From Burkholderia cepacia GG4 (GTDB lineage Bacteria; Pseudomonadota; Gammaproteobacteria; Burkholderiales; Burkholderiaceae), in contig NC_018514.1 of assembly GCF_000292915.1 (NCBI RefSeq), forward strand, positions 124,001 through 188,000: 64,000 nt of DNA. The letters run 5' to 3'. The translations under genes were made by a program, and so were the position numbers. Within the stretch, counting starts at the first letter, position 1, and each line of letters begins with the position of its first letter. Positions 54,034-63,089 of the stretch are shown here, piece after piece. A model generated the notes under the pieces. The model was not told the origin of the DNA, made no database searches, and saw nothing but the letters and a program-made list of their open reading frames with translations.

Positions 54034-54294
54034 TCGGGGTCTGACGATGGATCGGGATGCCTGAAGACGGGATCCGGTGTGGTCGCGGCGATTGTGCAGG
54101 TGCGGAAAAACGAATTGAAAGAAGGTTAAATAATTTTAAGTTTGTTTAAAACGATTCGAGTAAAGGCGGCGCAATGGTTGTGAAAGTGACGGGATTTGAT
54201 TTATTACGAGACGAAAGAATGTCGAGCTATGTGAGATCACTCGATAAATGAAAATTGCGCTGCCTGTCGAGCGCATCGGTAATTTTGGGAAATC

Positions 54295-54318
54295 CGTTTC
54301 AATAGAATGATTGAAACG
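54295..54318. promoter_or_regulatory. 9-bp-arm dyad in the rhlA upstream region
   Basis: CGTTTCAAT (54295-54303), spacer AGAATG, ATTGAAACG (54310-54318). A perfect dyad of operator size in an AT-rich non-coding region. The binding protein is unknown. Confidence 0.55.
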
Positions 54319-54487
54319 TCATAAGTCATTGAATGTGCGTGGAAGTTTGCGAAATATTGGCCGCCAGTCGGCATGTTGGCAAACGATTGCGATCGCCTTT
54401 CATCCAATTCTGCTTACCATAAAAAATGCTGGAAAAATTTGAATCGAACGTATTTCCCGGTGAAGTAGAGGGGATCGTTGGAATGAC

Positions 54488-54517
54488 TTGAGTAAGTAAT
54501 ATCGACCGTATTAGTAT
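54488..54517 (+). promoter_or_regulatory. possible rhlA promoter
   Basis: TTGAGT (54488-54493), 18-base spacer, TAGTAT (54512-54517), about 157 bases before the rhlA ATG. Only moderate match to sigma-70 consensus. Confidence 0.3.
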
Positions 54518-54673
54518 GGCGCCGCACCAGAAGGAATGAATCGGCGCCGCGGGTATGGGTCGCGGTGCGCCGGCAATGGGCGCGGCCAACGAGCGCGAAC
54601 AGGGCCGGCGCCAGCCATTGCGCACCTGCAGCATGCCGCGACGCCGAGACGCCGCATTCACCGGAGAACGACG

Positions 54674-55576
54674 ATGCCGACCGAAAAATACGTGGTCCCG
54701 CTGCCGAATGGTCTGAAGGTCTACGTCGAACGGAACGTGTTCGATCCGTCGTTTGACACGGCGATGCTCGTCAACGGCGCGCTCGCGACCACCGCGTCGT
54801 TCGGGCAGACGGTCCAGTATCTCGGCGAGCGGTTGAACACGATCTGCTTCGACCTGCCGTATGCGGGGCAGTCGCGCCAGCACAATCCGGGCTGCTTCGT
54901 CCTGACGAAGGACGACGAGGCCGCGATCCTGCAGCATCTGGTCGAACGCTTCGCGCCCGCGTTCCTGGTGTCGGTGTCGTGGGGCGGCGTCGCGTCGCTG
55001 TTCGCACTCGCGCGCGGCTGTCCGAGCGTGCGGCGCGCGGCGATCTGTTCGTTCTCGCCGTTCCTGAACGACGCGATGGTCGACTACGTGACACGCGCCC
55101 GCGACCACATCGCAGCCGGCGAGAACCTGAAGGCCGCGCAGTTGCTCAACGATACGGTCGGCCGCTACCTGCCGCGCATCATGAAGCTGTACAACTACCG
55201 GTATCTGACGCGCCTGCCGCGCGACGAGCAGGACCAGGTCGCGTTCCACGTCGACCAGATCCTGTCGCTGCAGCCGGAGCGCTACCTGAGCGAGTTCTCG
55301 AACATCGGCTGCGAGCTGCTGTTCCTGAACGGCGAGCGCGACGACTACACGACGCCGGCCGACGTTCGCCAGCTGGCCGCGCACGTGCCGCGCGCGCGCT
55401 TCGCGACCATTCCCGATGCCGGCCATTTCCTCGACATCGAAGGCCGCGCGCAGCGCGAGACCACGCGTGCGGCGCTGCTCGGCTTCTTCTGCGACGCGCC
55501 ACCCGTTGCCGCGGGCATCGCGCGCGGCGCCACGCACGCCTACGTGTCCGCGCCGATGGCGGCACTGTCGTCGTGA
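54674..55576 (+). CDS. rhlA: HAA synthase RhlA
   Basis: 300-residue alpha/beta hydrolase-fold acyltransferase that joins two 3-hydroxyacyl units into 3-(3-hydroxyalkanoyloxy)alkanoate, the lipid half of rhamnolipids. Nucleophile Ser102 in VSVSWGGVA, an Asp in GERDDYTTP and a His in PDAGHFLDIE form the triad. The ATG at 54674 has GGAGA seven bases upstream. First gene of the rhamnolipid operon; Burkholderia RhlA enzymes usually favour C14 chains, which cannot be read here. Confidence 0.93.
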   Translation: MPTEKYVVPLPNGLKVYVERNVFDPSFDTAMLVNGALATTASFGQTVQYLGERLNTICFDLPYAGQSRQHNPGCFVLTKDDEAAILQHLVERFAPAFLVSVSWGGVASLFALARGCPSVRRAAICSFSPFLNDAMVDYVTRARDHIAAGENLKAAQLLNDTVGRYLPRIMKLYNYRYLTRLPRDEQDQVAFHVDQILSLQPERYLSEFSNIGCELLFLNGERDDYTTPADVRQLAAHVPRARFATIPDAGHFLDIEGRAQRETTRAALLGFFCDAPPVAAGIARGATHAYVSAPMAALSS

Positions 55577-55661
55577 CGCGGCACGGCGCGCATCCGGCGC
55601 ACTGGGCGCACCGGGTGCGCCGGGCATATCCGAATTCCCATCCAAACGAGGCAGGCCAGCC

Positions 55662-56231
55662 GTGAATATCGTTCAGACCATCGCCATCGTCGTTCCGTGG
55701 GCCGTGTGGCTCGCCTACTGGATCGCGACGTCGCAGGGCGTGAAGACGACCGTGCGCAAGGAGGCGTCGCGCTCGCGCACGTTGCAGTCGATTCCGCTGA
55801 TCGTCGGCGGCGCGCTGATCATCCTGCCCGCCCCGACGCTGCACGCGATCGTGCCCGACTGGCAGCGCTTCGGCCTGCAGGCGCAATGCGGGCTCGCGGT
55901 GCTGGTCGCGGGCCTGCTGTTCTCGGTGTGGGCGCGGCTGCATCTCGGCACGAACTGGAGCGTGTCCGTCACGCTGAAGGAAAACCACGAACTCGTGCGC
56001 ACCGGTCCGTACGGGCTCGTGCGTCATCCGATCTATACCGGCTGCCTGATCGCGCTGGTCGGCGCCGCGCTGATCGGCGGCGAGTGGCGCGGCGCGCTCG
56101 GCGTGGTGCTCGTGTTCGCGTCGCTCGCATACAAGGTGCGTGTCGAGGAGAGCTGGCTGAGCGGCCATTTCGGGCCGGCGTACACGCAGTACCGCCGCGA
56201 GGTCGCGGCGCTGATTCCCGGCTTCTACTGA
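55662..56231 (+). CDS. ICMT-family membrane methyltransferase in rhl operon
   Basis: 189-residue integral membrane protein of the isoprenylcysteine carboxyl methyltransferase / phospholipid methyltransferase superfamily. Four or five hydrophobic helices lead to the conserved SAM motif RTGPYGLVRHPIYTGCLIAL (about 113-132) and a terminal E-E-x-x (VRVEESWLSGHFG). The start is GTG at 55662 with GAGGCAGG upstream. It lies between rhlA (85-base gap) and rhlB (17-base gap). Family members methylate carboxyl or lipid groups, so O-methylation of HAA or rhamnolipid carboxylates is a reasonable inference. Confidence 0.8.
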   Translation: MNIVQTIAIVVPWAVWLAYWIATSQGVKTTVRKEASRSRTLQSIPLIVGGALIILPAPTLHAIVPDWQRFGLQAQCGLAVLVAGLLFSVWARLHLGTNWSVSVTLKENHELVRTGPYGLVRHPIYTGCLIALVGAALIGGEWRGALGVVLVFASLAYKVRVEESWLSGHFGPAYTQYRREVAALIPGFY

Positions 56232-56248
56232 TTCCCGCGAGGCGCGCG

Positions 56249-57532
56249 ATGGCGAAGGTGATCGTGACCGCGATCGGCTCGGCGGGCGACGTGCATCCGC
56301 TGCTCGGCGTCGCGCGTGCGCTCGCGATGCGCGGCCATGATGTCGTGTTCTGCACGCATCCGCCGTTCGAGGCGGCCGCGCGCCGCTGCGGCTTCGCGTT
56401 CGTGCCGGTCGGCACGGCAGCCGAGTACGAGGCCGCGATGGCGAATCCGGCGCTATGGGATCCGCGCACGTCGTTCCGCACGCTGTGGCAGGTGATCGCG
56501 CCGGTGCTGCGGCCGCATTACGACGTGCTGCGCGCGCTGACCGATCGCGATACCGTGCTGGTCGGCACGCTGTGGGCGTTTTCCGCGCGCTTCATGCAGG
56601 AGTTGCACGGCACGCCGTACGTATCGGTGCAGGTGTCGCCGTCGACGCTGCTGTCCGCGCACGTGCCGCCGACGCACCCGCGCCTGACGATCCCCGCGCG
56701 CTGGCCGCTGCCGGTGAAAGTGGCGTTGATGACGTTGATCGAGCGGCAGGTGCTCGACCGCGTGTGCGGCCCGGCGCTCAATACGGTGCGCCGCGAACTC
56801 GGGCTCGCGCCCGCGCGGCGCGTGCTCGGCCGCTGGCTGCATTCGACCGACGGCGTGCTGTGCCTGTTTCCCGACTGGTTCGCACCGGCGCAGCGCGACT
56901 GGCCGGCGCAGCATCTGCAAAGCGGCTTTCCGCTGTTCAACGACGTCGCGACGCCCGGCCACGACGCCGCGCTCGACGTGTTTCTCCCGGCCGGCGAGCC
57001 GCCCGTGGTGTTTACGGCCGGCTCGACGCTCGTCGATCACGCCGCGTATGCGCGCGCGGTGTCGGACGCGCTGCGCGCCACTGGCGCGCGCGGCATCCTG
57101 CTGACCCCGCACGATGCGGCATCGGACGGCAACCGCCTGCTCGTGCGCCGTTTCGTGCCGATGCGCACGTTGCTGCCGCGTTGCCGCGCGCTTGTGCATC
57201 ACGGCGGGATCGGCACCGCGGCGCTCGCGTTCGAAGCCGGAATCCCGCAAGTCGTGACGCCGTTCGCGCACGACCAGTTCGACAATGCGCAGCGTGTCGC
57301 GATGAGCGGCGCCGGTGTGCGCGTCGACGGTCCCGTCGACGGCGCGCGTCTCGGTGCGGCGCTCATGCGCGTACTGGATCAGCCTGACATCGCCGTGCAT
57401 GCGGAGCGCACGCGTGCGCTGATCAACGCGGCGCCGGACGGTTGCGAGGCGGCCGCCGATTTCATCGAGCGCTTCGCGCCGAAACGCGGACGTGCGCGCG
57501 CGCCGGCCGCCGTCGCGACGGCGGGCGCATGA
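56249..57532 (+). CDS. rhlB: rhamnosyltransferase 1 (RhlB)
   Basis: 427-residue GT1-family glycosyltransferase that adds L-rhamnose from dTDP-L-rhamnose to HAA, giving mono-rhamnolipid. The N-terminal GSAGDVHPLLGVARAL is the acceptor-domain opening. The C-terminal nucleotide-sugar motif is VHHGGIGTAALAFEAGIPQVVTPFAHDQFDNA (about 315-346). The start at 56249 has GAGG upstream. The stop overlaps the MFS gene start (ATGA). Confidence 0.92.
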   Translation: MAKVIVTAIGSAGDVHPLLGVARALAMRGHDVVFCTHPPFEAAARRCGFAFVPVGTAAEYEAAMANPALWDPRTSFRTLWQVIAPVLRPHYDVLRALTDRDTVLVGTLWAFSARFMQELHGTPYVSVQVSPSTLLSAHVPPTHPRLTIPARWPLPVKVALMTLIERQVLDRVCGPALNTVRRELGLAPARRVLGRWLHSTDGVLCLFPDWFAPAQRDWPAQHLQSGFPLFNDVATPGHDAALDVFLPAGEPPVVFTAGSTLVDHAAYARAVSDALRATGARGILLTPHDAASDGNRLLVRRFVPMRTLLPRCRALVHHGGIGTAALAFEAGIPQVVTPFAHDQFDNAQRVAMSGAGVRVDGPVDGARLGAALMRVLDQPDIAVHAERTRALINAAPDGCEAAADFIERFAPKRGRARAPAAVATAGA

Positions 57533-59124
57533 GCACGACGTCGCCGCAGCAGGACGCGCCCGCCGCGCCCGCCGCCTTCGATGCGGTCGCGCTCGCGCCG
57601 GGCGCGCCGCCGGTGCGCGGGGCCCGTCTCGCGCTGCTGACGTTCGCGCTGTCGCTCGCGACCTTCATCGAAGTGCTCGACTCGACCGTGACGAACGTCG
57701 CGGTACCGGCGATCTCGGGCAGTCTCGGCGTCTCGAACAGCCAGGGCACATGGGTGATCAGCTCGTACTCGGTCGCGGCCGCGATCGCGGTGCCGCTGAC
57801 CGGCTGGCTCGCGCGCCGCGTCGGCGAGCTGCGGCTGTTCGTCGGCGCGGTGCTGCTGTTCACGCTGACGTCGCTGCTGTGCGGGCTCGCACGCGACCTG
57901 CACGTGCTGGTCGTCTGCCGCGCGCTGCAGGGGCTGTGTTCGGGGCCGATGGTGCCGCTGTCGCAGACGATCCTGCTGCGCAGTTTCCCGCCGGACAAGC
58001 GCACCGTCGCGCTCGCGCTGTGGGCGATGACGGTGCTGCTCGCGCCGATCTTCGGGCCGGTGGTCGGCGGCTGGATCGTCGACAGCTTCTCGTGGCCGTG
58101 GATCTTCCTGATCAATTTGCCGATCGGGCTGTTCTCGTTCGCGGTCTGCACCGCGATGCTGCGCCCCGACGCGCAGCGCGGCGCGGCCGGCCCGATCGAC
58201 GTGCCGGGCATCGTGCTGCTCGTGATCGGCGTCGGCTCGCTGCAGGCGATGCTCGATCTCGGCCACGACAAGGGCTGGTTCGATTCGCCGCTGATCGTCA
58301 CGCTCGCGGTGGTCGCGGGGCTCGCGATCGTGTCGCTGCTGATCTGGGAGGCCGGCGAGGCTCATCCGGTCGTCGACCTGAGCCTGTTTCGCGACCGCAC
58401 GTTCTCGTTCTGTGTGCTGATCATCTCGCTCGGGATGATGAGCTTCTCGGTCGTGGGCGTCGTGTTTCCGCTGTGGATGCAGGCGGTGATGGGCTACAAC
58501 GCGTTCCACGCGGGACTGGCCACCGCGTCGCTCGGCGTGCTCGCGCTGGTGTTCTCGATCCTCGTCGGCCTGCATGCGCACCGTTTCGACGCGCGCGTGC
58601 TCGCGACCTTCGGCTTCCTGGTGTTCGCGGCCGTGCTCGCGTGGGACGCGCATTTCACGCTGACGATGACGTTCGCGCAGATCGCCGCGCCCGGGTTGAT
58701 CCAGGGGATCGGCCTGCCGTGCTTCTTCATTCCGCTGACCGCCGCGACGCTGTCGCGTATTCCGGACGACCGGCTCGCGGCCGCGTCGAGCCTGTCGAAT
58801 TTCCTGCGCACGCTGTCGGCCGCGTTCGGCACCGCGATGAGCGTGACGCTGTGGGACAACCGCGCGACCTATCACTACGACGTCGTGTCGCAATCGGTCA
58901 CGCACGCGTCGGCGAACACGCAGCGCTTCGTGCACACGCTGAACGCGATGGGCGTGGACGGCGTGCGCGAGCTGACGACGCTGCACCAGGTCGTGATGCA
59001 GCAGGCGTACATGATGGCGACGGGCGACATGTTCTGGATGGCGAGCATGACCTGTCTCGTGCTCGCCGCGATGATGTGGCTGACGCGGCCGAAGCGCGGC
59101 GCGGCAGCGTCGTTCGGACATTGA
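57529..59124 (+). CDS. DHA2-family MFS pump (EmrB-like), rhamnolipid export
   Basis: 531-residue 14-helix drug:H+ antiporter of the DHA2/EmrB type. Helix 1 shows the family motif FIEVLDSTVTNVAVPAISGSLGVS with motif D1 (LDxTxVNVALP-like). GWLARRVGELRLFV is motif A. Its position between rhlB and rhlC, with an outer-membrane factor and EmrA-like adaptor further on, points to a tripartite exporter for rhamnolipids. Confidence 0.9.
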   Translation: MSTTSPQQDAPAAPAAFDAVALAPGAPPVRGARLALLTFALSLATFIEVLDSTVTNVAVPAISGSLGVSNSQGTWVISSYSVAAAIAVPLTGWLARRVGELRLFVGAVLLFTLTSLLCGLARDLHVLVVCRALQGLCSGPMVPLSQTILLRSFPPDKRTVALALWAMTVLLAPIFGPVVGGWIVDSFSWPWIFLINLPIGLFSFAVCTAMLRPDAQRGAAGPIDVPGIVLLVIGVGSLQAMLDLGHDKGWFDSPLIVTLAVVAGLAIVSLLIWEAGEAHPVVDLSLFRDRTFSFCVLIISLGMMSFSVVGVVFPLWMQAVMGYNAFHAGLATASLGVLALVFSILVGLHAHRFDARVLATFGFLVFAAVLAWDAHFTLTMTFAQIAAPGLIQGIGLPCFFIPLTAATLSRIPDDRLAAASSLSNFLRTLSAAFGTAMSVTLWDNRATYHYDVVSQSVTHASANTQRFVHTLNAMGVDGVRELTTLHQVVMQQAYMMATGDMFWMASMTCLVLAAMMWLTRPKRGAAASFGH

Positions 59125-59134
59125 GGAGAGAGGC

Positions 59135-60073
59135 ATGACGACACTCGGCGCACTCGTGATCCTGTATCACCCGACCGACGCGCAGCTCGAGGCGCTCGGC
59201 GCGTGGCGGCACGCGTGCGACGCGCTGCTCGTCGTCGACAACACGCCGCATCCCGATGCGCGCGCGCGCGAACGGTGCGCGCGCGACGGCATCGCGCTGC
59301 TGCATCACGGCAATCGCGGCGGGATCGCGGGCGCGTACAACGCGGGGCTCGCGGCGCTGTTTCGCGACAACGTCGATGCGGTCGCGCTGTTCGACCAGGA
59401 TTCGTCGGTGCCGGCCGGCTACTTCGCCGCGATGCGCGAGATCTGCGCGGGCCTCGCGGGACGCGCGTTCCTGGCCGGCCCGCGCATCTTCGACGAGAAC
59501 GCGCGCAGCTTCCTGCCCGAGCTCGCGACCAACGGGATCGCGCTGCGCCGGCTGCGCCTCGAGCCCCACACGCCGCTGCAGCGCTGCGCGTTCCTGATCT
59601 CGTCGGGCTGCGTCGTGCCGCGCGCCGCGTTCGACGTGCTCGGCCGCTTCGACGAGACGCTGTTCATCGATCACGTCGACACCGAGTACAGCTTCCGCGC
59701 GCTCGCGCGCAACGTGCCGCTCTATATCGTGCCGTCGCTGGTGCTGCCGCACCGGATCGGCGCGAAGCAGCGTCACGCGTTCGGCCCTTTCGAAATGACG
59801 TCGATGAATCACTCGTGGCAACGGCGCTACTACAGCGCGCGCAATGCGGTGCAGCTCGGGATGCAGTACGGGTGGCGCTTTCCGGTGGCGATCGTGCCGA
59901 ACCTGCTGACCGTGTGGCAGGTCGTGCAGATCGCGCTCGTCGAGCGCGACAAGCGCGCGAAGCTCGCCGGCATCCTGTTCGGCATCACGGACGGCCTGTT
60001 CGGCCGGCTCGGTCCGCTCGAGCGCACGCGGCCGCGTCTGGCCGCGCGGGCGCAGCGCGTGCAGCAGGGATGA
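59135..60073 (+). CDS. rhlC: rhamnosyltransferase 2 (RhlC)
   Basis: 312-residue GT2 glycosyltransferase that adds the second rhamnose, giving di-rhamnolipid. The sequence opens TLGALVILYHPTDAQLEAL. It has VDNTPHPD, the DxD-like FDQDSSVPAGYF (about 88-99) and IDHVDTEYSFRA (about 176-187). Start 59135 follows GAGGAGAGAGGC. The 3' end meets the outer-membrane factor gene. Confidence 0.92.
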   Translation: MTTLGALVILYHPTDAQLEALGAWRHACDALLVVDNTPHPDARARERCARDGIALLHHGNRGGIAGAYNAGLAALFRDNVDAVALFDQDSSVPAGYFAAMREICAGLAGRAFLAGPRIFDENARSFLPELATNGIALRRLRLEPHTPLQRCAFLISSGCVVPRAAFDVLGRFDETLFIDHVDTEYSFRALARNVPLYIVPSLVLPHRIGAKQRHAFGPFEMTSMNHSWQRRYYSARNAVQLGMQYGWRFPVAIVPNLLTVWQVVQIALVERDKRAKLAGILFGITDGLFGRLGPLERTRPRLAARAQRVQQG

Positions 60074-60081
60074 GGGCAGCG

Positions 60082-61899
60082 ATGGAACGCATCACGAAAG
60101 CGGCGCGGCCGGCGCGCCGCGGGCAGGGCGGCTGGACGATCCTGGCGGTGGCCGCGCTGCTGACGCTGGGCGGCTGCGTGCCGTCGGGGTTCCTGCCGTC
60201 GCTGTCGCTGCGCGCGCCGGCCGGCGACGCGCTCGCGCACACCGCGGGCCCCGGCGCGGACGGCGCGTGGCCCGCGCCGGACTGGGTCAGGCAGTTGCAG
60301 GATCCGCAGCTCGACGCACTGGTGGCGGAGGCGTCGCAGAAAAATCCGGATCTGCAGGTCGCGCAGGCGCGGTTGCGGATCGCGCAGGCGCAGCTGCGGC
60401 AGTTCGATTCGCTGACCGGGCTGACCGGCACGGCCGGTGCGACGGTCAGCCGCGCGCGGATGCCGAAGCCGGGCGATATCGCCGACGTGACGGCCGGCGG
60501 CTATCGCGTGCCGGTCGAGATCTTCGGCGATCCGATCGTATCGCCGTCGTCGGTGTTCGTCGGGCTGAACTACCAGCTCGACCTGTGGGGCAAGAACCGC
60601 GCGGCGACCAGGAGCCTGATGTCGCTGCGCGATGCGGCGGGCGTCGAGGCCGAGCAGGTGCGGCTCACGCTCGCGGTGGCGATCGTCACCGTGTATTGCC
60701 AGCTCGACCAGGCGTACGCGGCGCGCGACCTGCTGCAGCAGAAGCTGAAGATCAGCCAGCGCGTGACGGCCGTGCTGCGCGAGCGCACCGCGCGCGGCCT
60801 CGACAACGCGTACGACGCGAGCGACGCGTCGATCAAGCGCAGCCGCCTGCTCGAACAGATCGCGCTGAACGACGAGCAGATCAAGCTCGCGCAACTGCAG
60901 CTCGGCGTGCTGTCGGGCCGCGGCCCCGAGCGCGGGCTTGCGCTGCAGCGGCCGCGCGTCGGCGCGTTCCCCGGCGGCGCGCTGCCGGCGCGGCTGCCGG
61001 CCGATCTGCTGGGCCGCCGGCCCGACATCGTCGCCGCGCGGCTGCGCGTCGAAGCCGCGTTCGCGAATGCCGATTCGACGCGCGCGCAGTTCTATCCGGA
61101 CGTGAACCTCGTCGCGCTCGGCGGCGTGTTCGCGCTGACGCCCGCATCGCTGTTCTCGCGCGACGCGCTCGCCGGCTCCGTCGGCCCCGCGATCTCGCTG
61201 CCGGTGTTCGATCGCGGCCGGTTGAAGGCGAAGCTCGGCGCGGACGTCGCGCAGGCCGACGTCGCGATCGGCTTGTACAACAAGACCGTCGACGACTCGC
61301 TCGGGCAGGTCGCGCAGATCGTCACGTCGCTGCAGACCGCGCAGACGCTCGTCGCGCAGCAGCAGGACGCAGTTGCCGCCGCGCAGAAGATCGTGCAGAT
61401 CGCGGCCGATCGCCACCGGCGCGGCGTGCTGATGCAGAAGGACGTCGATGTCGCGGATCTCACGCTGATCGACGAGCGCGCGCAGCTCATCGCGTTGCTC
61501 GGGCGGCAGCAAACGCTGCGCGTCGGGCTGGTCGGCGCGCTCGGCGGCGGGTTCGATGCGGGCGCAACGATGGCATCGGCTTCAGTATCGACACCTGCTG
61601 CGCGTACGGCTCAAGCCACACGGACGAAGCGCGGTGCGACGGCGAATGCCGCTGCCCGTAACCCGACGAACACTGGCACGGAAGCGCGTCGTGCGGCCGT
61701 TTCAGGGAATGCCGTGGCGCCGTATGCCGCGCGCATCGACCCGCCGGCGGCCGTCATGCCGCCGCGCAGTGCGGCGGCCGATATCGCGAGCGTGACCGCC
61801 GGCGTGCGCAGCCCGGCGTCGGCTGTCCCGTCCGACGCACGCCTGCCCGCGATACCCCAGTTCCAGCATGACCGCCTGATCGTTACGCAAAGCGACTGA
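60082..61899 (+). CDS. NodT-type outer membrane factor with long C-terminal tail
   Basis: 605-residue outer-membrane efflux lipoprotein of the NodT family. Lipobox LGGC lies at about residue 33. Two OEP (TolC-like) repeats span about 70-490, with LNYQLDLWGKNRAA and GRRPDIVAARLRVEAA. The last ~110 residues (from about GATMASASVSTP) are Ala/Thr/Pro/Arg-rich, low complexity, and not part of the usual ~490-residue family. An ATG at 60070, overlapping the rhlC stop, is an alternative start; 60082 has GAGGG upstream. The stop overlaps the next ATG by one base. Confidence 0.87.
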   Translation: MERITKAARPARRGQGGWTILAVAALLTLGGCVPSGFLPSLSLRAPAGDALAHTAGPGADGAWPAPDWVRQLQDPQLDALVAEASQKNPDLQVAQARLRIAQAQLRQFDSLTGLTGTAGATVSRARMPKPGDIADVTAGGYRVPVEIFGDPIVSPSSVFVGLNYQLDLWGKNRAATRSLMSLRDAAGVEAEQVRLTLAVAIVTVYCQLDQAYAARDLLQQKLKISQRVTAVLRERTARGLDNAYDASDASIKRSRLLEQIALNDEQIKLAQLQLGVLSGRGPERGLALQRPRVGAFPGGALPARLPADLLGRRPDIVAARLRVEAAFANADSTRAQFYPDVNLVALGGVFALTPASLFSRDALAGSVGPAISLPVFDRGRLKAKLGADVAQADVAIGLYNKTVDDSLGQVAQIVTSLQTAQTLVAQQQDAVAAAQKIVQIAADRHRRGVLMQKDVDVADLTLIDERAQLIALLGRQQTLRVGLVGALGGGFDAGATMASASVSTPAARTAQATRTKRGATANAAARNPTNTGTEARRAAVSGNAVAPYAARIDPPAAVMPPRSAAADIASVTAGVRSPASAVPSDARLPAIPQFQHDRLIVTQSD

Positions 61900-63089
61900 T
61901 GCACCACGACAACTTTCATACCGCCGCCCAGCCGGCCGCCCTGAACGACCCGGCACTCGACGCGCGCCGGGCGACGCGCCGCAAGCGCTTCACGCTGTTC
62001 TTCGCGGTCGTGCTGCTGGCCGCGCTCGTCTGGGGCGCGTTCTGGCTGCTGCGCGACCGCTATGATGAGGACACCGACGACGCGTACGTCGCGGGCAGCA
62101 TCGTGCAGGTCGCAGCGCAGATCCCGGGCGCCGTGACCGACGTGCTGGTCGCCGACACGCAGGCCGTGCGCGCCGGGCAGACGCTCGTGCGGCTTGATGA
62201 TACGGAAGCCTCCGTGGCGTTCGCGCAGGCGAAGGCGCAGCTCGTGCAGGCCGTGCGGCAGGTCGCGAACGCGAAGATCTCGAACACGATGTACGTCGAA
62301 GCCGTGAACGCGCGCCAGGCCGACCTGTCGCTCGCGCAGCGTGCGCTTGCCGCGCGCTCGGGCGCATCGGTCGAGATCGTCGCGCCGGAGGAACTGGCGC
62401 GCGCCCGCGCGGCGGTCGCCGGTGCCCAGGCGAACCTCGCGGCCGCGCAGGCGCAGCTCGAAGCGGCGCGCGCGCTCGGCAGCAAGCTGCCCGTCGACGA
62501 GAGCCCGGCGGTCGTGCAGGCGGCTGCGCAGTTCAAGCTCGCATACCGGAACCTTAAGCGCACGACGATCGTCGCGCCGGTCGACGGTACGATCGGCCAG
62601 CGTTCGGTGCAGGCCGGCCAGCAGGTCGGTCCGGGCGTGCCGCTGATGTCGATCGTGCAGCTGAACCGGCTGTGGATCGAGGCGAATTTCAAGGAAGGGC
62701 AGATTCGCCACATGCGCGTCGGCCAGCCGGTCGACGTCGTGTCCGACCTGTACGGGTCGCGCGTCATCTATCGCGGCCGCGTGCAAGGTTTCTCCGCGGG
62801 CACCGGCAGTGCGTTCTCGATGCTGCCGTCGCAGAACGCGGCCGGCAACTGGATCAAGGTGGTGCAGCGCGTGCCGGTCGTGATCGCGATCGATCCCCGC
62901 GATCTGGCCGCGCATCCGCTGCGGGTCGGGTTGTCGATGCGCGCGACGGTCGACACGCACAACCGCGACGGCCACGCGCTCGACAGCGAGCCGCCGACCC
63001 CGGCCGTCAGCACGCGCATGCATGATGGCGTCGCGAGCGACGCCGAGGCTGCCGCCGCCGCGATTGTCCGCGAGAATCAGGGCGGGTAA
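61899..63089 (+). CDS. EmrA-type membrane-fusion adaptor
   Basis: 396-residue HlyD/EmrA-family periplasmic adaptor. One N-terminal membrane helix (about 30-50), YDEDTDDAYVAGSIVQVAAQIPG biotinyl-lipoyl opening, a long coiled-coil hairpin (about 110-210) and a beta-barrel with APVDGTIGQRSVQAGQQV. It should link the DHA2 pump to the NodT factor. Last gene of the operon. Confidence 0.9.
   Translation: MHHDNFHTAAQPAALNDPALDARRATRRKRFTLFFAVVLLAALVWGAFWLLRDRYDEDTDDAYVAGSIVQVAAQIPGAVTDVLVADTQAVRAGQTLVRLDDTEASVAFAQAKAQLVQAVRQVANAKISNTMYVEAVNARQADLSLAQRALAARSGASVEIVAPEELARARAAVAGAQANLAAAQAQLEAARALGSKLPVDESPAVVQAAAQFKLAYRNLKRTTIVAPVDGTIGQRSVQAGQQVGPGVPLMSIVQLNRLWIEANFKEGQIRHMRVGQPVDVVSDLYGSRVIYRGRVQGFSAGTGSAFSMLPSQNAAGNWIKVVQRVPVVIAIDPRDLAAHPLRVGLSMRATVDTHNRDGHALDSEPPTPAVSTRMHDGVASDAEAAAAAIVRENQGG

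Follow-up and report, generated by a model that had tools for sequence, protein, structure and literature searches.

A predicted rhamnolipid carboxyl methyltransferase gene, rhlM, between rhlA and rhlB in Burkholderia cepacia GG4

What is a gene for a methyltransferase-like membrane protein doing in the middle of a rhamnolipid (rhl) biosynthetic cluster? The question is raised by a 64,000-nucleotide stretch of Burkholderia cepacia GG4 DNA (hereafter the window: C2:124001-188000 in a 6.47-Mb genome of two contigs). An earlier note, made from the sequence alone, had placed such a gene at 55662..56231, between rhlA and rhlB. These coordinates proved exact: the frame opens with GTG at 55662, its stop codon ends at 56231, it lies on the same strand as both neighbours, and it is separated from the end of rhlA by 85 nucleotides (nt) and from the start of rhlB by 17 nt. 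We are highly confident that the gene encodes an orthologue of RhlM, which methylates the carboxylate of finished rhamnolipids. Its function is almost certainly known already, rhlM having been published in 2024.

The name was introduced by Liu et al. 2024 (ISME J, PMC11069360) for locus RW095_02150 of Paraburkholderia kirstenboschensis F3, an ICMT-family gene 3' of rhlA in a strain that makes rhamnolipid methyl esters. According to that paper, deletion of rhlM abolished the methyl esters and a plasmid copy restored them, while L-[D3]-methionine led to the appearance of three deuteriums in the product, so that the methyl group derives from methionine. Methylation, chiefly of di-rhamnolipid in F3, was proposed as the final step. 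The paper further describes a survey of Burkholderia sensu lato for rhlM, notes RhlM homologues in distant taxa, assigns the rhl-linked homologues of Burkholderia, Paraburkholderia and Caballeronia to its Cluster 14, and cites Hirayama and Kato 1982 for an earlier account of methyl rhamnolipids in Pseudomonas aeruginosa. A full-text literature search for rhlM together with rhamnolipid returned Liu et al. 2024 as the sole match; the gene, which the earlier note could not say had been reported, had thus been described.

The window's protein has the attributes expected of this family. Its translation contains the S-adenosylmethionine (SAM) motif TGPYGLVRHPIYTG quoted in the earlier note, and it exceeds the Pfam cut-offs for both PEMT (53.7 bits, cut-off 25) and ICMT (50.5 bits, cut-off 24), as the note's assignment to the ICMT/PEMT superfamily would have it. 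The PEMT match denotes superfamily membership and is silent on a phospholipid substrate. Scores against more specific NCBIfam models all fall under the cut-off: 82.9 bits for protein-S-isoprenylcysteine O-methyltransferase (NF040696, equivalog cut-off 160), 26.3 against 270 for the methanethiol S-methyltransferase MddA, and 30.4 against 325 for LmtA. The SAM residues H122 and E162 are invariant across 37 aligned proteins, and the conserved SAM-site defect that the note had named as counter-evidence is not seen. An AlphaFold2 model comprises many long helices and matches Protein Data Bank (PDB) entry 4a2n; judged by this model, RhlM is probably an integral membrane protein. Two other PEMT-family matches occur in the genome, at G000:C2:2837618-2837914 (L002) and 2143376-2143603 (L003).

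Linkage to rhlA provides the second line of evidence. A family survey of 398 genomes (thresholds of E 1e-20 for rhlM-like matches and E 1e-40 for rhlA) located rhlM-like matches in 72 genomes, at 73 places, and rhlA in 74 genomes, at 78 places, one interrupted rhlA being counted as two pieces. At 66 of the 73 places rhlM lies directly 3' of rhlA on the same strand, and these are exactly the matches with at least 60% identity; the other seven (33-49% identity) lack any same-strand rhlA match in the 1 kb before them. Comparing rhl clusters across the genus, as the earlier note had proposed, places rhlM directly after rhlA in 48 of the 54 rhlA-bearing genomes of the window's genus. The note's remark that textbook rhl operons lack the gene is consistent with the published clusters of B. 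thailandensis and B. pseudomallei (Dubeau 2009, PMC2804600), but not with the window's genus, where the gene is the rule. An adjacent rhlM is missing at 11 rhlA places in eight genomes (six of the window's genus). In each of the 11, rhlB follows as the next rhl gene, 47-292 nt past the rhlA match, and no rhlM remnant was detected in the rhlA-rhlB gap, permissive tblastn matches (E of 1.3 or more) lying outside it.

A set of 48 named loci, which is not independent of the genome survey because many of the loci come from the same genomes, shows the order rhlA-rhlM-rhlB in 41 (Burkholderia, Paraburkholderia, Caballeronia and one metagenome-assembled genome (MAG) labelled Ferrovum). In 38 of these 41 a major facilitator superfamily (MFS) exporter and rhlC are also present, and the remaining three end at contig ends. 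The rest of the 48 comprise L105, in which rhlA-rhlM is followed by the MFS gene, and six loci with an rhlM relative only. Rough Nei-Gojobori estimates of the ratio of nonsynonymous to synonymous substitution rates (dN/dS) are 0.15-0.47 for rhlM (11 chosen pairs) and 0.095-0.20 for rhlA (six chosen pairs). rhlM is under purifying selection and, given these ranges, is less constrained than rhlA. Because 41 of 48 named loci keep the slot between rhlA and rhlB, and because of this dN/dS, the gene stands far beyond chance; a chance or misannotated open reading frame (ORF) is rejected on the Pfam scores, the surveyed homologues, the conserved slot and the SAM residues.

Several atypical loci were encountered along the way. 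At L131 (G181:C33) rhlA is interrupted, its two pieces overlapping but lying in different frames and one of them containing a stop; in G360:C2 it has one in-frame stop. The adjoining rhlM match is stop-free in both, and the rhlA defects reflect either sequencing error or a decaying cluster. L130 (G362:C3:2269000-2276000) encodes a 189-amino-acid (aa) ICMT relative of 37% identity, with no rhlA, rhlB or rhlC match in the surrounding 7 kb that was fetched; its genome has two rhlM-less rhl clusters. The flanking DNA fetched for L106-L111 yielded no further rhl match around their ICMT relatives (34-61% identity); the one in L107 sits next to genes for a soluble methyltransferase and a short-chain dehydrogenase.

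The translational start at 55662 is supported by the rhlA-adjacent loci L064-L105, since all 42 matches begin at residue 1; their start codon is GTG in 34 and ATG in eight. An earlier start at 55416 was rejected: it lies inside rhlA, which the extended frame overlaps, and similarity to the relatives sets in with the first residue encoded from 55662. Within the window rhlM belongs to a complete rhl cluster, rhlA-rhlM-rhlB-MFS-rhlC-NodT-EmrA, all on the plus strand, whose features are as follows.

54674..55576, + strand: rhlA, synthase of 3-(3-hydroxyalkanoyloxy)alkanoic acids (HAAs), 300 aa, alpha/beta hydrolase (Pfam Abhydrolase_6, 50 bits); orthologues directly 5' of rhlM in 66 places
55647..55661, + strand: conserved 15-nt leader with a ribosome-binding-site-like GAGG before the rhlM start
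55662..56231, + strand: rhlM, predicted integral-membrane SAM-dependent rhamnolipid carboxyl methyltransferase, 189 aa, GTG start
56249..57532, + strand: rhlB, first rhamnosyltransferase, 427 aa (Pfam EryCIII-like_C, 75.5 bits; Glyco_transf_28, 47.3 bits)
57529..59124, + strand: EmrB/DHA2-type MFS exporter (TIGR00711, 464.4 bits, cut-off 230.2)
59135..60073, + strand: rhlC, second rhamnosyltransferase, 312 aa (TIGR01556, 214.9 bits, cut-off 200.55)
60082..61899, + strand: NodT-family outer-membrane channel (TIGR01845, 307.9 bits, cut-off 210.05)
61899..63089, + strand: EmrA-type periplasmic adaptor (Pfam HlyD_D23/HlyD_3 above cut-off; TIGR00998, 321.4 bits, under the cut-off of 390.8)

The name rhlA is taken from published rhl clusters (PMC11069360), NCBIfam having given no rhlA model match. 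The start of the MFS exporter gene shares 4 nt with the rhlB stop. The leader at 55647..55661 is identical in the window and in 11 other Burkholderia rhlA-rhlM gaps, the remainder of the gap being variable, and its GAGG is a putative ribosome-binding site. On the plus strand of 54200-57600 no terminator-like site was found; the single promoter-like site and the single terminator-like site that the scan yielded are on the minus strand, the plus strand having neither. A hairpin in the RNA between rhlA and rhlM was also considered: the window's gap folds strongly, at -40.8 kcal/mol over 91 nt including the start codon (a value without a shuffled control), and the gaps of the 11 relatives differ in sequence and fold; no claim is made for it.

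On this reading, RhlM would be a small polytopic membrane enzyme of ICMT fold that binds SAM through an RHP(I/V)Y ... EE pocket containing H122 and E162 and takes up its amphiphilic substrate from the membrane. The free carboxylate of the finished rhamnolipid would be methylated last, after the action of RhlA, RhlB and RhlC, so that the products would be rhamnolipid methyl esters without charge. Export of these esters is probably the task of the EmrAB/NodT-type genes that close the operon. To this picture the present analysis contributes the gene, its position, the predicted fold, the SAM residues and the conserved linkage to rhlA and rhlB, while P. kirstenboschensis supplies the evidence on which product is formed and on the need for rhlM in forming it; by analogy, the same reaction and last-step order would apply in the window's strain.

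The main point on which one might differ is the substrate. The same free carboxylate is present on HAAs, and rhlM adjoins rhlA and precedes rhlB, an arrangement that would suit methylation of HAAs before rhamnosylation, the cluster then making HAA methyl esters and rhamnolipid esters only by way of them. We nevertheless regard this as very unlikely: in the F3 rhlB mutant HAAs were seen whereas methylated HAAs were not detected, as reported in PMC11069360, which disfavours HAA as the sole substrate. The earlier note had proposed methyl esters of HAAs or of rhamnolipids; the first half is disfavoured because of this mutant, while the second is supported by the deletion, complementation and labelling in F3.

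That RhlM might instead be a general ICMT/PEMT-type enzyme for a membrane phospholipid, isoprenoid or thiol, located in the operon by accident, could be argued from a PEMT score slightly above that for ICMT and from the related ICMTs of L106-L111, which occur without an rhl gene in the fetched flanks. We give this an exceedingly small chance in view of the rhlA linkage in 66 of 73 places, the scores under the cut-offs for isoprenylcysteine methyltransferase, LmtA and MddA, and the published loss of rhamnolipid methylation on rhlM knockout (PMC11069360). Practically negligible, in our estimation, is the prospect that rhlM is a decaying or silent passenger in a strain making ordinary anionic rhamnolipids. 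Six of the 54 rhlA-bearing genomes of the window's genus do without an adjacent rhlM, so the gene is dispensable, but the ORF is full-length, the SAM residues are invariant and the dN/dS given above speaks against decay.

How the rhlM-less clusters arose was approached through phylogeny. The nearest named relative of RhlA is from Burkholderia ambifaria (96%), and those of RhlM (95%) and RhlB (92%) are from Burkholderia sp. Bp9142; in the RhlM tree the window sits among Burkholderia rows. In the RhlA tree, midpoint-rooted for drawing only, five genomes of the window's genus contribute six rhlM-less rows, all nested in one branch (support 95/91) otherwise made up of rhlM-bearing Burkholderia and one Paraburkholderia. 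Because the rhlM-less rows fall within an otherwise rhlM-bearing branch, the tree weakly favours loss of rhlM in a subclade over late gain. The rhlM-bearing L132 (G126) joins four of these six rows with support of 87/78, under the starred threshold; a label test gave four changes for the rhlM-less rows against a shuffled mean of 3.6, no better than the shuffles; and the backbone is largely unresolved, with long branches flagged. Liu et al. 2024 describe two Burkholderia subclades, one of them without RhlM save for one exception (PMC11069360).

Two clusters bear labels from outside the Burkholderiaceae. L099, the MAG labelled Ferrovum, has rhlA-rhlM-rhlB-MFS-rhlC at 48-64% identity. The MAG labelled Verrucomicrobiaceae (L105/L114; G398:C20, ~147467-154633, on a 225-kb contig) has rhlA-rhlM-MFS-NodT-EmrA-glycosyltransferase; 5' of rhlA lie genes for a PapA/condensation-like acyltransferase and a P450. 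Its RhlM is 58% identical to that of the window. The EryCIII-like glycosyltransferase aligns with RhlB over 377 columns at 36% identity and is the sole RhlB match in the genome at E 1e-8; no RhlC match was found there at E 1e-8, a provisional absence as a completeness figure is missing. On this one MAG contig, provided that its bin label is right, we base the tentative and rather doubtful suggestion that a portable core of rhlA, rhlM and exporter pairs with varied sugar-adding enzymes and, outside the Burkholderiaceae, may methyl-esterify other lipids that bear a single sugar.

Once its carboxylate is methylated, an anionic surfactant becomes non-ionic. The methyl esters of F3 are reported to have stronger antimicrobial and surfactant properties, to aid motility and to solubilize aromatic hydrocarbons better (PMC11069360). 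Since rhlM is so common in the genus, rhamnolipid extracts from such Burkholderia strains are worth checking for methyl esters, which negative-mode liquid chromatography-mass spectrometry set for acids could miss.

Among known systems, the clusters of B. thailandensis and B. pseudomallei share with the window rhlA, rhlB, rhlC and the EmrB-, NodT- and EmrA-type genes. Unlike the window, they include no methyltransferase among the ORFs described and occur as two identical copies; the other cluster ORFs are given as transport genes and a hypothetical protein, and 'methyl' appears 0 times in the main text (Dubeau 2009, PMC2804600). Eukaryotic ICMT, the protein-S-isoprenylcysteine O-methyltransferase (PDB 5v7p/5vg9), is longer (~280 residues) and has a protein substrate. 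The ICMT-like enzyme of Methanosarcina acetivorans (4a2n), whose methyl acceptor is given as undetermined in PMC11069360, shares ~20% identity with the window's RhlM. Closer at hand is B. lata R-18110 (L068), whose rhlM is 93% identical to the window's; a nonionic rhamnolipid (methyl ester) of B. lata was described by Gauthier et al. 2024 (cited in PMC11069360). F3 RhlM belongs to another genus and strain, and the window's protein, known here from its sequence, is likened to it by residue numbers and fold. Both are ICMT-family membrane proteins encoded 3' of rhlA in an rhl cluster, both have the SAM residues H122 and E162 at identical numbers, and both are predicted to fold like 4a2n and eukaryotic ICMT.
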